Shown piece by piece: positions 3,890 to 29,255 of a stretch of 64,000 bases of DNA; position 1 is the stretch's first letter, and every line of letters begins with the position of its first letter. The notes beneath the pieces are model-generated. The model saw nothing but the letters and a program-made list of their open reading frames with translations, made no database searches and was not told where the DNA came from. The position numbers were made by a program, and so were the translations under genes. This DNA comes from SAR202 cluster bacterium bin87 (GTDB taxonomy: Bacteria; Chloroflexota; Dehalococcoidia; Lucifugimonadales; UBA3495). The stretch covers positions 62,001 to 126,000 of the forward strand of contig MPNC01000006.1 in NCBI GenBank assembly GCA_002238825.1, in the 5' to 3' direction.

Positions 3890-5389
3890 ATGAGCACACC
3901 CGCCGCCAGCGATCTCTGGCAACTGTCCGTAGCCGAGGCCTCCCGTCTCCTCGCCAACCGCGAAATCAGCAGCGTCGAGCTCACCGACGCCTGCCTGGAG
4001 CGCATCGCCGCAGTGGATGACCGGATATCCGCCTACATCACCGTAACCGCCGACATCGCGCGCCAGCAGGCCGCCGACGCCGACCGCCGCATCGCCGCTG
4101 GCGACGCATCTCCCCTTACCGGCGTTCCCATGCAGATCAAGGACCTGCTCTGCACCAACGGCGTGGCCACCACCTGCGCCTCCCGGATGCTCGCCGAGTA
4201 TGTCCCGGTGTACGATGCCACCGCCGTGGCCCGCCTCCGCGAGCAGGGCGCCGTCATGCTCGGCAAGGGCAACATGGACGAGTTCGGCATGGGCTCCTCC
4301 ACCGAGAACTCCGCCTTCTTCCCCACGCGCAATCCCTGGGATACGTCCCGCGTTCCGGGCGGCAGCAGCGGCGGCTCGGCGGCAGCGGTCGCGGCCGGCG
4401 CCGCCCCCTTCGCCCTCGGCACCGACACCGGCGGCAGCATCCGCCAGCCTGCTTCCTTCTGCGGCGTCACCGGCCTCAAGCCCACCTACGGCCGCGTCAG
4501 CCGCTACGGCTTGGTGGCCTACGCATCCTCGCTGGACCAGGTAGGACCCCTGGCCCGCGACGCCGCCGACTGCGCCTTGATCCTGCAGGCCATCGCCGGC
4601 CACGACCCCCGCGACGCCACCTCGCTGCCCGATCCGGTGCCCGACTACTCGGCCGCGCTGACCGGCGACATCAAGGGCCTGCGCCTGGGCGTGCCCCGCG
4701 AGTACTTCGCCGAGGGTATGGACCCGGGCGTCCGCGCCACCGTCACCGCCGCCATCGACCAACTGGCCGCCCTCGGCGCCGAGGTCCGCGAGGTCTCACT
4801 GCCTACCACCGAGTACGCCCTGGCCTGCTACTACATCATTGCCCCGTCCGAGTGCTCCGCCAATCTGGCCCGCTACGACGGCGTCAAGTACGGCTATTCA
4901 TATCAGGATGACGGCCGGGGCGACGTCGATATGTGGGAAGCCATGGAGCGCACCCGCCAGCACGGCTTCGGCCCCGAGGTCAAGCGGCGCATCATGCTGG
5001 GCGCCTTCGCCCTGTCCTCCGGCTACTACGACGCCTACTACCACAAGGCCCAGCAGGTGCGCACCCTCATCCGACAGGACTTCGCCCGCGTCTTCGAAGA
5101 GGTCGATGCTTTGGCCGCCCCGGTCTCGCCGGTAACTGCCTTCCCCATCGGCGACCGCACCGACGACCCGGTCCGCATGTACCTGGTGGACGTCTACACG
5201 CTCCCCGTCAACATGGCCGGCCTCCCCGCCATGTCCGTCCCCTGCGGCTTCAGCGACGGATTGCCGGTCGGCCTACAGCTGATAGGGTCGCACCTGACGG
5301 AGGGTCACCTGCTCAACATCGCCCACACCTACCAGCAGGCAACGGAGTGGCACCAGCAGCGCCCGGGGATCCCCCACCGGGGCCGGTGA
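3890..5389 (+). CDS. gatA: Asp-tRNA(Asn)/Glu-tRNA(Gln) amidotransferase subunit A
   Basis: This is a 499-aa amidase-signature protein, close to the usual GatA length. The Ser-cisSer-Lys triad is visible: Lys in [11 protein letters not shown], the cis-Ser in [15 protein letters not shown], and the nucleophile Ser upstream of it in the Gly/Ser-rich [14 protein letters not shown] region. GatA hydrolyses glutamine and channels ammonia to GatB. ATG 3890 is chosen, 4 bases after the gatC stop. A longer open frame from 3626 runs through gatC in another frame and is rejected. The C-terminus ([19 protein letters not shown]) is also canonical. Confidence 0.95.
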
Positions 5390-24270: not shown

Positions 24271-24720
24271 ATGACTAGCCGTTCGCCCGCCGACGAATAC
24301 CGCTCGATCCGGATACTGGTGATCTGCACCGGAAACCGGGCGCGTTCGCAGATGGCCCACGGCTGGCTCAATCATCTGGGCGGTGAGAGGGTGGCCGTGG
24401 ACAGCGCCGGCACCGAGCCGCGCGGCGTGCATCCGCTGGCGGTGCGCGTCATGGCCGAGGTCGGCATCGACATATCGGGCCACACTTCCGACCACGTTGA
24501 CCGGTACGCCGCTGACGATTACGACCTGGCGCTGACCGTGTGCGACGCCGCGCGGGAAGCCTGCCCCGTCTTCCCTGGCGCGCAACGGACCGTGCACCAC
24601 GGGTTTGTTGACCCCGACCAACCCGGGCTCGAGGAGCCGGCGCTGGTCGAACTGTTCCGAACCGTGCGTGATCAGATCGGCGAGTTCTGTCGCGAGTTGC
24701 TCGACGCCGGACTTGACTGA
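24271..24720 (+). CDS. arsC: Arsenate reductase-type low-molecular-weight phosphatase
   Basis: This 149-aa protein of the LMW-PTPase/thioredoxin-coupled ArsC family has the P-loop CTGNRARSQMAHG (nucleophile Cys about residue 15). It also has the VDSAGTEPRGVHPLAVRVM and ISGHTSDHVD signatures and the redox pair C-x6-C in VCDAAREACP, as in pI258-type arsenate reductases. It would reduce As(V) to As(III) using thioredoxin. The usual MHHHH-like ArsR or efflux neighbours are absent; a DtxR-type regulator follows instead. ATG 24271 is preferred over ATG 24214 because the extra residues are Arg-rich and unlike the family. The symbol is given by family only. Confidence 0.8.
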   Translation: MTSRSPADEYRSIRILVICTGNRARSQMAHGWLNHLGGERVAVDSAGTEPRGVHPLAVRVMAEVGIDISGHTSDHVDRYAADDYDLALTVCDAAREACPVFPGAQRTVHHGFVDPDQPGLEEPALVELFRTVRDQIGEFCRELLDAGLD

Positions 24721-24859
24721 AAGCGCGGGGTTGGCCGGTTACGCCACCGGGCCGCGTGGTCGATGGGGTTCCAAGGCCGGCCCTCCGGTCCGGACGGCGG
24801 TGGCCGGCGGATGGGGTATAATCGCGCCAATCCTAGACATATCCCCGGAGGAAGGGGTC

Positions 24860-25627
24860 GTGCCGCGACCGCGAAAAACCGCCACCGAGTCCAGGGCCCA
24901 GACCGAAGGGCACGACACGCCGGACCGACTGTCGCCGGTTACCGAGAACTACCTGCTGTCCCTGTACAAGATGTGGGAGGACTCGGAGATCCCGACGCTG
25001 ACGCAGTTGACGGAAGCGTTGCGGCAGTTGCCGCCCACTGAAGGGCTGGGGACGTCGGTCCCGTCAGTTGCCGGGATGCTGAGGCGGATGCAGAAGCAGG
25101 GCCTGGTGGACATCGGCAACGACAAGCGCATCCGGATGACGAGGCGAGGACAGACCGAAGGCGAGAACATCGCGCGCCGCCACCGGCTGGCGGAGTGGCT
25201 CGTGGTGAGCCTGCTGGGCATGGAGCTGCACGAGGCCCACATCGAGGCGCACCAACTGGAGCACGGCATGTCCGACGCCATGGAAGCCAAGCTCATGGAG
25301 CGGTTGGGCAACCCGACCCACTCGCCCTTCGGCTGGCCGATACCGGGCAGCGGGCCAAGCACGCCGTCGCCGGGCGCGGTCACCCTGGACAACGCCGCCA
25401 ACGGCACGGCCTACGTGGTGGATCGGGTCCCGGAAGAGGATGCGGAGTTGCTGAAATTCCTGGGCTCCGCGCAGTTGGTGCCCGAACGCTGCATCACCCT
25501 GCTGGAGGGGATGCCCTACTTGGGGGTCATGCAGGTGGAGACGGAGGTGGACCGCATCTCCATCGGCTACAACGTGGCGCGGCAGATCGTGGTGCGGCCG
25601 GCCGTGGAAAACGAGGGCGACGACTAG
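24860..25627 (+). CDS. DtxR family metal-dependent transcriptional regulator
   Basis: This 255-aa regulator has three parts. The first is an N-terminal winged helix (VTENYLLSLYKMWEDSE, SVPSVAGMLRRMQKQGLV). The second is the dimerisation/metal domain with the hallmark pattern RRHRLAEWLVVSLLGM, EAHQLEHGMSD and LGNPTHSPFGWPIP. The third is a C-terminal SH3/FeoA-like region (VDRVPEEDAELLKFL, INV-type ending). DtxR/IdeR/MntR proteins repress iron or manganese uptake when metal-loaded. GTG 24860 is chosen because GGAGGAAGG lies just upstream. It could regulate the iron-type transporter at 17.3-20.1 kb, which is inference. Confidence 0.85.
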   Translation: MPRPRKTATESRAQTEGHDTPDRLSPVTENYLLSLYKMWEDSEIPTLTQLTEALRQLPPTEGLGTSVPSVAGMLRRMQKQGLVDIGNDKRIRMTRRGQTEGENIARRHRLAEWLVVSLLGMELHEAHIEAHQLEHGMSDAMEAKLMERLGNPTHSPFGWPIPGSGPSTPSPGAVTLDNAANGTAYVVDRVPEEDAELLKFLGSAQLVPERCITLLEGMPYLGVMQVETEVDRISIGYNVARQIVVRPAVENEGDD

Positions 25628-27153: not shown

Positions 27154-27732
27154 TCAACAGGCTCTGGTCTCGTCGCTGAGGGCGCGGCGCACCTCGGCCC
27201 AGCCGTCGGCCATGGTGCGTTCCGGGAAGGCCGGCAGTTCCGGCTCAGGCAGGACCTTGACGGCGACGAGTATCGGGCCAGTGCGGGCCATGATGTCCTC
27301 CAGGCCGATGAGGAACTCCTCCAGGTTGTCGAACCGGCAGGCGTGGGCGTAGCCGGCGCTGCGGGCCATACCCTCGAAATCGATACGGTCCAGCCCGCGG
27401 ATGGGCGTTCCGTCGGTGGACGAGTGGTCGGCGTCCTCCAGCACGAAGTGGACGAAGTTTGCCGGCGAGGCCTCGCCGATGGTGACCAGACTGGCCAGGT
27501 CGGTGCGCAGGGTGGCGTCGCAGTCCAGCACCAGGATGCGGCGGTTGGGCTGGGCCAGGGACAGACCGAGACCGACGGCCGGCGCCCGGTCCATGCAGTC
27601 AGTGAGGTCGATGTCCAGGTCACGCCGGTCGGAGACGTTGTGCCAGTCGCGCAGGGCGGCCGAGGTCGACACCACCAGCGAGTCCTGGCGATGGTAGTTG
27701 ATGGCGCGGGCCACTTCACGAGAGGGGATCAT
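27154..27732 (-). CDS. TPP-enzyme C-terminal-domain paralogue with lost cofactor motif
   Basis: This 192-aa protein aligns end to end with the beta subunit at 28091-28687: MDRAPAVGLGLSLAQPNRRI against MGKASNVGLGIALAQPGRKV, then matching blocks around GTPIRGL and FDNLEEF. Where functional thiamine-diphosphate enzymes have GDG(S) and a downstream Asn for Mg-diphosphate (VLDGDGSLLMNLGAL in the neighbour), this copy reads VLDCDATLRTDLASL. The first Gly and the Asn ligand are therefore gone. It is probably not catalytic by itself. It may be a structural or regulatory partner of the alpha/beta pair, or a diverged enzyme. No ribosome site is evident. Confidence 0.65.
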   Translation of the reverse strand: MIPSREVARAINYHRQDSLVVSTSAALRDWHNVSDRRDLDIDLTDCMDRAPAVGLGLSLAQPNRRILVLDCDATLRTDLASLVTIGEASPANFVHFVLEDADHSSTDGTPIRGLDRIDFEGMARSAGYAHACRFDNLEEFLIGLEDIMARTGPILVAVKVLPEPELPAFPERTMADGWAEVRRALSDETRAC

Positions 27733-27795
27733 TGAGTTTTACATCGATAGACAGGATGGACAGGATCCAAACCGAATGGAGACGGGATGCCGCGA

Positions 27796-28014
27796 TCAGT
27801 CATCGCCGTTGGGTTCTCGATCCGAATCGCGGCGGGCCTCGGTGCGTCGGGACGACACCATGAGGTACAGGCCGGCGGGAATCAGCACGGCGCCGGGGAC
27901 GGCCTTGAGCGCGTTGCCCTCGATGAACCCCAGCCACAGCAGGTAGAATCCGGCGACGACCACAGCCGACGCGAACAGGCGGCCAAAGATGCTGAAGGGG
28001 CGGAACCTGGGCAT
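27796..28014 (-). CDS. Small two-helix membrane protein
   Basis: This 72-aa open frame between two TPP-enzyme-like genes encodes two hydrophobic segments (FASAVVVAGFYLLWLGFI and LKAVPGAVLIPAGLYLMV). A basic, then acidic, hydrophilic tail follows (RRTEARRDSDREPNGDD). The composition looks protein-like, but the ribosome site before ATG 28014 is weak. Longer in-frame starts run through a palindromic repeat and the neighbour. The function is unknown. Confidence 0.45.
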   Translation of the reverse strand: MPRFRPFSIFGRLFASAVVVAGFYLLWLGFIEGNALKAVPGAVLIPAGLYLMVSSRRTEARRDSDREPNGDD

Positions 28015-28037
28015 GAGCGAGAGGAGATTACCTAATC

Positions 28038-28065
28038 GTAGGGGCGAATGATCATTCGCCCCTAC
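28038..28065. repeat. Perfect 28-bp palindrome (GTAGGGGCGAATGA half-site)
   Basis: GTAGGGGCGAATGA is followed directly by its complement TCATTCGCCCCTAC, with no loop. It lies in the 76-bp gap between the small membrane protein and the beta subunit. This kind of sequence is known as a dispersed repeat in many bacterial genomes. Only one copy is seen in this window. Confidence 0.75.
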
Positions 28066-28090
28066 AAGTGGATGCTGAGTGGCAAGTTGG

Positions 28091-28687
28091 TTAGTTGTCG
28101 CCGGCGAGGGCGGCGGTGACTTCCTGGTAGGCCTGTTGCGCGGTGCGGGAGGCACGGGTGCGGAACTGCACCGGCGTATTCTCGATCTCTGGTTCCACCG
28201 CCAGGTGGATGAAGACCGGGCCCTCGGCGGCGAGCGCGTCGCTGATGCCGGTGGTGAAGTCTTCCAGGTTGTCGAAGGAGAAGACGGCGGCATAGCCGGC
28301 GCCCCGAGCGACTTCCTCCCAGTTGGTGACGCCCTCGGAGCCGGGAATGGGCTGCCCGCCGGTGACCGCGTAGACGCCGTTGTTGAAGAGGAAGTGGTAG
28401 AAGTTCTTGGGCGCCTTGGTGGAGGTGGTGACCAGCGCGCCGAGGTTCATCAGCAGGCTGCCGTCGCCATCGAGCACGAAGACCTTGCGGCCGGGCTGGG
28501 CCAGGGCGATGCCCAGCCCGACGTTGCTGGCCTTGCCCATTGCGCCGGAGATCGGCAGGTCCAGGTTCTGGTTGGTGGTGACGGAGGGCAGGCCGAACCG
28601 GTGGTTGCCGGCGTTCATGGTGGGGACGACTACGGCGTCTTCGCGGTTGGAGTCGATGACGCGCACGGCATCGGTGTTGTTGATCAT
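28091..28687 (-). CDS. TPP-dependent decarboxylase-like beta subunit
   Basis: This 198-aa protein is a stand-alone C-terminal (PP) domain of thiamine-diphosphate decarboxylases, most like the beta subunit of sulfopyruvate/phosphonopyruvate decarboxylases. The cofactor motif is GDGSLLMNLGALVT (Asp and Asn bind Mg-diphosphate), followed by FYHFLFNNGVYAVTGGQPI. It should combine with the PYR-domain subunit encoded 55 bases upstream to decarboxylate a 2-oxo acid. Start 28687 has AGGAG on the reverse strand. A decarboxylation of sulfonate- or phosphonate-derived 2-oxoacids is plausible, but the substrate is not proven by sequence. Confidence 0.8.
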   Translation of the reverse strand: MINNTDAVRVIDSNREDAVVVPTMNAGNHRFGLPSVTTNQNLDLPISGAMGKASNVGLGIALAQPGRKVFVLDGDGSLLMNLGALVTTSTKAPKNFYHFLFNNGVYAVTGGQPIPGSEGVTNWEEVARGAGYAAVFSFDNLEDFTTGISDALAAEGPVFIHLAVEPEIENTPVQFRTRASRTAQQAYQEVTAALAGDN

Positions 28688-28742
28688 GGGATTTGCTCCT
28701 GGGTTCGTGGGCGCGGGATGCGCGGGGAATGGTTGCTATCGA

Positions 28743-29255
28743 CTAGACGCCGAACTCGGTGCCGATGAGGACGGCCACGGGCCGGTTGAGGCGCACGGAT
28801 TCGTCGAATGCGATGCTGATGCGGTCGGCGTCGTCATCGGTTTCCACGAGGTAATAGTTGATGCCCCAGGCGTGGAGGATGTGCTCGATGAAGCGCCCGG
28901 CGGAGTCTGGAGTGGGACCGCGGCGGGTCCAGCCGCGATAGCCGACCAGCATGACCAGGGGCTGGTTGAGGTCCAGGCACAGGCCGCGAATGGAGTCGCC
29001 CGCCTCGAAGACACCGGTGTTCTGTATGAGCACCACTGGATTGGCGCCGCCGACCCAGAGCCCGGCGGCCACGGCCATGGTCTCGCCCTCGCGGCACACT
29101 GGAATCAGGTCCAGGGTGGGCTCTTCCATCATCATGTTGTAGAGGAAGTTGGTCTCGCTGTCGGGGAGCCAGACGACGTGCGAAACGTTGTTCTTCTTCA
29201 GCTCTGCGACCAGGGATTGCGGGTGCAATACAGATTCGTAGACTTCGGTGGTCAT
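28743..29255 (-). CDS. TPP-dependent decarboxylase-like alpha subunit (PYR domain)
   Basis: This 170-aa protein is a stand-alone N-terminal pyrimidine-binding domain. The family Glu that activates the thiamine aminopyrimidine sits in CREGETMAVAAGLWVGG. VVLIQNTGVFEAGDSIRGL and PLVMLVGYRGWTRRG are also characteristic of sulfopyruvate/phosphonopyruvate decarboxylase alpha subunits. The start at 29255 is preceded by AAGGAG. It is the first gene of a minus-strand cluster, with the beta subunit directly downstream. Together they should form an alpha/beta heteromer. The repeat-filled region upstream must carry the promoter. Confidence 0.8.
   Translation of the reverse strand: MTTEVYESVLHPQSLVAELKKNNVSHVVWLPDSETNFLYNMMMEEPTLDLIPVCREGETMAVAAGLWVGGANPVVLIQNTGVFEAGDSIRGLCLDLNQPLVMLVGYRGWTRRGPTPDSAGRFIEHILHAWGINYYLVETDDDADRISIAFDESVRLNRPVAVLIGTEFGV

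Follow-up and report, generated by a model that had tools for sequence, protein, structure and literature searches.

A degenerate beta paralogue of a split ThDP enzyme is paired with a predicted membrane hairpin gene in SAR202 bacteria

Introduction

Why would a bacterium keep a third copy of a ThDP-enzyme subunit whose cofactor motif has changed, next to an intact alpha/beta pair? The question is raised by the window analysed here, the whole stretch of 64,000 nucleotides on contig C45 of a 4.96 Mb genome assembly (G000). The host belongs to a widespread, hardly cultured marine lineage of the Chloroflexota. An earlier note on this DNA proposed that the third copy, called beta' below, had lost its cofactor motif and was kept for a non-catalytic function such as stabilisation or control of the pair. 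The copy offers a directly testable case of an enzyme subunit turning into something else.

There seems to be little literature on pseudo-subunits that descend from ThDP enzymes, as nothing relevant was found among titles and abstract openings. By title, no paper on sulfopyruvate decarboxylase paralogs concerned a degenerate copy, and no literature joining SAR202 and sulfopyruvate decarboxylase was found. When two SAR202 papers were searched by term, ThDP enzymes were absent from the body text: PMC6946804 gave one reference-list passage only, and PMC10444878 one unrelated passage only.

Results

Gene organization of the locus

The span 27154-29255 contains four open frames on the minus strand, in the transcription order alpha, beta, a two-helix membrane gene and beta'. 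The alpha subunit (170 aa, 28743..29255, PF02776 at 1.8e-6) and the beta subunit (198 aa, 28091..28687, PF02775 at 6.4e-19) represent a ThDP enzyme split into separate PYR and PP subunits. Beta retains an intact GDGS/NN motif, and by sequence and alignment its GDGS codons (residues 74-77) lie at 28457..28468. Residue E56 of alpha, within 'CREGE', was E in 48/48 alpha rows, and we take it to be the expected catalytic glutamate. Beta' (192 aa, 27154..27732) matched PF02775 with 28.1 bits (E=2e-6), over the gathering cut-off of 21.9, which confirms a third TPP-enzyme paralogue beside the intact pair. The earlier account of the span was correct for these three genes and overlooked the fourth, the membrane gene (72 aa, 27796..28014), which was recognized by hydropathy, an AlphaFold model and its conserved position.

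Alpha scored 82 bits against TIGR03845 (sulfopyruvate decarboxylase alpha), under the cut-off of 147.95. Beta scored 114.2 bits against TIGR03846 and 117.6 against TIGR03297, and beta' scored 65.1 and 76.6, all under the equivalog cut-offs of 221.5 and 312.5. Because these cut-offs were missed, the likeness to RhiEF and ComDE gives alpha/beta no substrate call. The neighbouring genes of the family loci gave no substrate hint either.

The family-recurrent neighbours around the cassette were asnS, an amidase, an ABC ATPase and a DtxR-type metal-dependent regulator with a FeoA domain. This regulator (window 24605-25627, plus strand) is convergent with the cassette and has relatives in 36/46 family loci compared. 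The interval between asnS and the cassette holds a variable gene of about 400-540 aa in several genera (L063 1898-3109, L070 2783-4363, L073 2998-4572 and L132 5370-6995). No Pfam match was obtained for the three copies checked, and those of L070 and L073 matched BREX-2 PglX of NCBIfam faintly (2e-5 and 1e-6, respectively).

Cofactor loops and predicted fold of beta'

Beta' aligned with beta from end to end (36% identity, E=5e-43), in agreement with the earlier statement that the two share a layout. In this alignment, GDGS of beta corresponds to CDAT of beta' (residues 71-74, codons 27511..27522), GAMG to DCMD (residues 45-48, codons 27589..27600) and N103 to D100 (codon 27433..27435). The changed positions align with the cofactor loops of benzoylformate decarboxylase, which grip the pyrimidine and diphosphate parts of ThDP; the aspartate that binds the metal in that enzyme aligns with D72 of beta'.

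D45, C46, M47, D48, C71, D72, T74, R76 and D100 were each invariant in the 46/46 family orthologs of beta'. The loops read DCMD and either CDAT or CDST in all 46, and none read GDG(S). The cognate beta rows had GDGS in 43/43, after 7/50 were set aside (six from other family clusters and one remnant). Such uniformity on both sides indicates that the change to CDAT and DCMD is not due to chance. A pattern for the TPP signature PS00187 was found in 0/52 beta' rows versus 77/79 GDG rows. In a 31-row alignment that includes distant families, D45, C46, D72, R76 and D100 did not vary, and D48 was kept in all rows of the beta' clade except one.

The earlier note read the replacement of GDG-S/N by CDAT/D as loss of the cofactor motif. 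The glycines are indeed lost in 46/46 orthologs. However, the metal Asp72 is kept, and the N-to-D change at the second metal ligand is rejected as a loss marker since D is likewise found there in paralogues of the order whose GDG is intact; D100 may therefore be ancestral. D72, the Asp of GDG, and D100 are each retained in 46/46 and are presumably, by homology, the side-chain metal-ligand positions, so that beta' may still be able to bind a metal or a diphosphate ligand. On this evidence the motif reads as remodelled, not erased: the loop glycines are replaced and the metal-ligand Asp is kept. A conserved two-cysteine metal site formed by C46 and C71 was considered and rejected as not general, since the copies read from f12 and f17 have S or T in place of C71.

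The AlphaFold model of beta' (pLDDT 94.6) keeps the PP fold. ThDP catalysis is likely lost in beta'. Judged by its sequence and predicted fold, beta' is a probable pseudoenzyme, in which a key motif is lost while fold and selection are kept.

A second kind of altered motif was seen in other alpha/beta pairs of this family, at L093 (G000:C28), L094 (G000:C42), L076, L077, L078, L127, L128 and L131. In these betas SEG replaces GDG, the metal Asp becoming Glu, and two such pairs lie in the window's own genome.

Selection on beta'

The comparison of non-synonymous and synonymous change that the earlier note had proposed was performed with 13/14 genomes of the genus, and the family ortholog L043 was left out. 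Within the genus, beta' had a median NG86 dN/dS of 0.108 (range 0.021-0.196 over 72 pairs), compared with 0.078 over 77 pairs of beta and 0.049 over 65 pairs of alpha. The value of beta' was higher than that of beta in 44/58 shared pairs. Beta' is under clear purifying selection, slightly weaker than that on beta.

Frameshifts or relaxed constraint in relatives had been named as the sign of a decaying pseudogene. Full-length frames were found in 46/46 family orthologs. The 'stops inside' flags of 5/46 rows (G012, G016, G008, G018 and G028) proved to be terminal stops, their frames ending a few residues from the C-terminus. Invariant positions showed synonymous codon variation (45 rows, L043 left out), apart from the single-codon Met. 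The idea that the full-length frame is maintained by selection is thus borne out by the dN/dS of 0.108, the 46 full-length family orthologs and the invariant loops.

Distribution and history

An ortholog of beta' was present in 46/50 family genomes; completeness is 67-85% in the other four. Seven genomes from outside the family also had copies belonging to the beta' clade, namely G083, G084, G085 and G087 of f12, G113 and G114 of f24, and G096 of f17. These copies had CDST, CDSV, SDAT, SDAA, TDAA or SDTA where GDGS stood. At 1e-20, 129 order genomes outside the family matched beta', and the motif was read in 31 of them, the better-scoring ones included; the count of 53/250 genomes is therefore a minimum.

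A tree was built from 143 rows (L043 left out), and all 52 rows of beta' were monophyletic in it with support of 98/99. The clade grouped, at the lower support of 93/78 and 91/82, with extra betas from other lineages, and several of these betas have an intact GDGS. Operons of alpha with two or three betas, mostly intact, occur elsewhere in the order and the class. The descent of beta' from an extra beta of a ComDE/RhiEF-type alpha/beta ThDP enzyme is well established at the level of sequence comparison, and in the simplest history a second, active beta would have degenerated once. Class-wide, the profile of beta' had matches with E of 1e-50 or better in 16/393 genomes, of which two are family members. 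Loci were read in 10 of the 14 others; the beta' loops and the membrane gene were absent from all of them, and two copies in these loci had ADGS or TDGG.

Extra betas of other kinds were also observed. L113 and L117 (G101 and G098) carry one alpha and three betas with the motifs GDGS, TDGG and GDGS. L115 (G068) has a far more degenerate extra beta at 4082-4621, with SNES for GDGS, after an intact alpha/beta pair and without a membrane gene.

The membrane gene as a partner of beta'

The membrane protein has two hydrophobic 19-mers with mean hydropathy of 2.23 and 1.69. AlphaFold, run with 10 sequences, gave helices at residues 6-32 and 35-66 (pLDDT 83.8, pTM 0.60), and a helical hairpin is predicted. 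Nothing above the Pfam cut-off was obtained in the three orthologs tested.

The membrane gene was present in 53/53 beta'-clade loci and missing wherever an inspected locus had an extra beta with intact GDGS. The altered extra betas of L113, L115 and L117 also stand without it. A membrane-gene profile search of 247 order genomes gave 55 clear matches, from the 53 beta' genomes plus G081 and G082, and one weak, unconfirmed match in G230. This search agrees with the beta' count and is independent of the reading of the beta' motif. The four family genomes without beta' lack the membrane gene too. At L145 and L146, from the small, related genomes G081 and G082, the membrane gene has no adjacent alpha, beta or beta'.

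With the start of beta' taken as the start of its profile match, the stop of the membrane gene overlaps the start of beta' in 36/53 loci (37/54 rows, L075 and L059 being one genome). The gap between these two genes was never >100 bases, whereas that between beta and the membrane gene ranged from 0 to 1405 bases and was >500 in 6/50 rows. The overlap and the short gap, set against the variable beta gap, make the membrane gene and beta' the tighter unit. No asnS, regulator or other flank gene was found in L097, L099, L101, L103, L145 and L146, which means that the flanks differ outside the family. In f12 the membrane gene and beta' are kept although the family flank genes were not found around them. 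Gene overlap and co-occurrence suggest that beta' works with the membrane hairpin.

Loci without cognate alpha/beta

All four genes were found in the same order in 49/53 loci. In L051 the contig end cuts the locus before alpha. In G042, G044 and G047 the locus consists of asnS, an unknown gene and then the membrane gene with beta', and in G044 a 99-aa beta remnant lies in between. Cognate alpha and beta were not found elsewhere in these three assemblies, although hidden copies are possible since the assemblies are 87-91% complete. The best beta match elsewhere was 45% identical in G042 and G044 and was beta' itself in G047, and the best alpha match was 61%, 61% and 23% identical, respectively; cognate family copies are at least 72% identical for alpha and at least 57% for beta. 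Thus 3/53 genomes carry beta' without the cognate pair at the locus, which speaks against beta' being an obligate accessory of it.

G042 and G044 form a sister pair in the tree (100/96), and the partner of G047 there is G040 (100/85), a genome with alpha/beta; this placement implies two losses of alpha/beta. At 77 conserved columns, beta' deviated at 0 in G042, 0 in G044 and 1 in G047, comparable to the 0-3 deviations in 77-79 columns of neighbouring beta' copies with alpha/beta. Usable dN/dS values of beta' from the genomes without alpha/beta were 0.03-0.11; 9/10 G044 pairs were saturated and gave no value. Replacement of alpha/beta by another ThDP enzyme was rejected for the three genomes, as the upstream gene of 524-541 aa has no TPP domain. 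In other genomes, moreover, relatives of this gene occur upstream of an alpha/beta pair that is present.

A path can thus be read in living genomes, from alpha with two intact betas, through a degenerate second beta with the membrane gene, to the pair without enzyme genes.

Discussion

We favour, with moderate confidence, the reading that beta' is a repurposed, probably ThDP-free PP-fold protein that works with the membrane hairpin and is not only a stabiliser of alpha/beta. The sequences show that both cofactor loops of the extra beta were stripped of their glycines in one clade, with D45 and R76 fixed there, and that beta' and the two-helix membrane gene form a conserved pair under purifying selection. 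In two lineages the pair persists where the cognate alpha/beta is missing. Beta' would no longer support ThDP catalysis, and the hairpin would bind it and place it at the membrane, where it may act as a non-catalytic scaffold or sensor. Where alpha/beta is present, beta' may also hold the enzyme at the membrane, given its descent from the partner of alpha, though this would hardly be its only job. Several findings stand against such a repurposed pair: the Asp ligands are kept, most loci still show all four genes together, the three assemblies lacking cognate alpha/beta are incomplete, the hairpin gene stands alone in G081 and G082, the altered betas of L113, L115 and L117 have no hairpin gene, and beta' changes slightly faster than beta.

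An alternative that we consider rather unlikely, and still a serious candidate, is that beta' serves the enzyme as a pseudo-subunit dedicated to regulation or stabilisation. It would replace beta against alpha and form half-inactive or membrane-tethered alpha-beta-beta' complexes. The order alpha > beta > membrane gene > beta' in 49/53 loci still favours a tie of beta' to the enzyme, and the model of beta' has the fold of a PP subunit, with many conserved positions common to beta and beta'. However, beta' persists in G042, G044 and G047, where the cognate alpha/beta is missing, with 0, 0 and 1 deviations, and the best alpha match of G047 is distant at only 23% identity. The stabilising or controlling role proposed earlier may hold where the enzyme exists, and it is weakened as a general account because beta' is unrelaxed without cognate alpha/beta and because gene order and overlap tie beta' more closely to the membrane protein.

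It is improbable, though less so than decay, that beta' still binds a ligand or catalyses a reaction through a pocket rebuilt from D45, C46, D48, D72, R76 and D100, with the hairpin as its membrane partner; such a pocket would hold a different metal-bound ligand or ThDP in an altered mode. The five residues that are invariant down to distant families, both acidic positions kept at the former metal site, and the S or T found in place of C71 in f12 and f17 speak for this pocket. Against it, four cofactor-loop glycines have become larger residues, and D100, being D in intact paralogues, may be ancestral. Decay into a pseudogene or neutral relic, to which the faster change of beta' relative to beta and its changed cofactor motif could point, is very improbable and is ruled out in practice by the low dN/dS of all 72 pairs, the full-length frames with invariant loops in 46/46 orthologs and the synonymous changes at invariant codons.

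Returning to the repurposed protein, beta' probably has a job of its own, being preserved and tied to the membrane gene even where the enzyme is seemingly lost. More speculatively, and at a probability that we regard as low, the ThDP domain and the Pfam-less hairpin may form an independent membrane module with its pocket rebuilt for a new metal-bound ligand, which would have its origin within an operon for a decarboxylase and would have survived the loss of that enzyme in two lineages.

Among known systems, the nearest solved pair is the phosphonopyruvate decarboxylase RhiEF (PDB 9IZ3/9IZ4), whose two chains are matched by the window's alpha and beta. Its chain 9iz3_B is the solved chain nearest to beta by sequence (8.6e-19) and also the closest fold to the predicted beta' (Z 24.8, rmsd 1.9, 173 residues aligned). 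RhiF is part of an active ThDP enzyme, whereas beta' lacks the GDGS motif and its gene is coupled to that of a membrane hairpin. In the parts of PMC12141560 consulted, RhiEF alpha and beta are encoded separately, as in the window, and no third degenerate copy is mentioned for the sulfopyruvate decarboxylase ComDE, whose profiles the window's alpha (82 bits) and beta (114 bits) match below cut-off; the window has beta'. The PP domain of E. coli pyruvate oxidase (3eya, titled a peripheral membrane enzyme) resembles the fold of beta' (Z 20.9). Unlike beta', this oxidase is an active single-chain enzyme. It attaches to the membrane through its own C-terminus. Plant PDX1.2 and the kinetoplastid prozyme are pseudoenzyme subunits in which an impaired paralogue is retained alongside active copies. 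Beta' differs from both in that it also persists where active copies are missing, and in that its gene overlaps that of a membrane protein.
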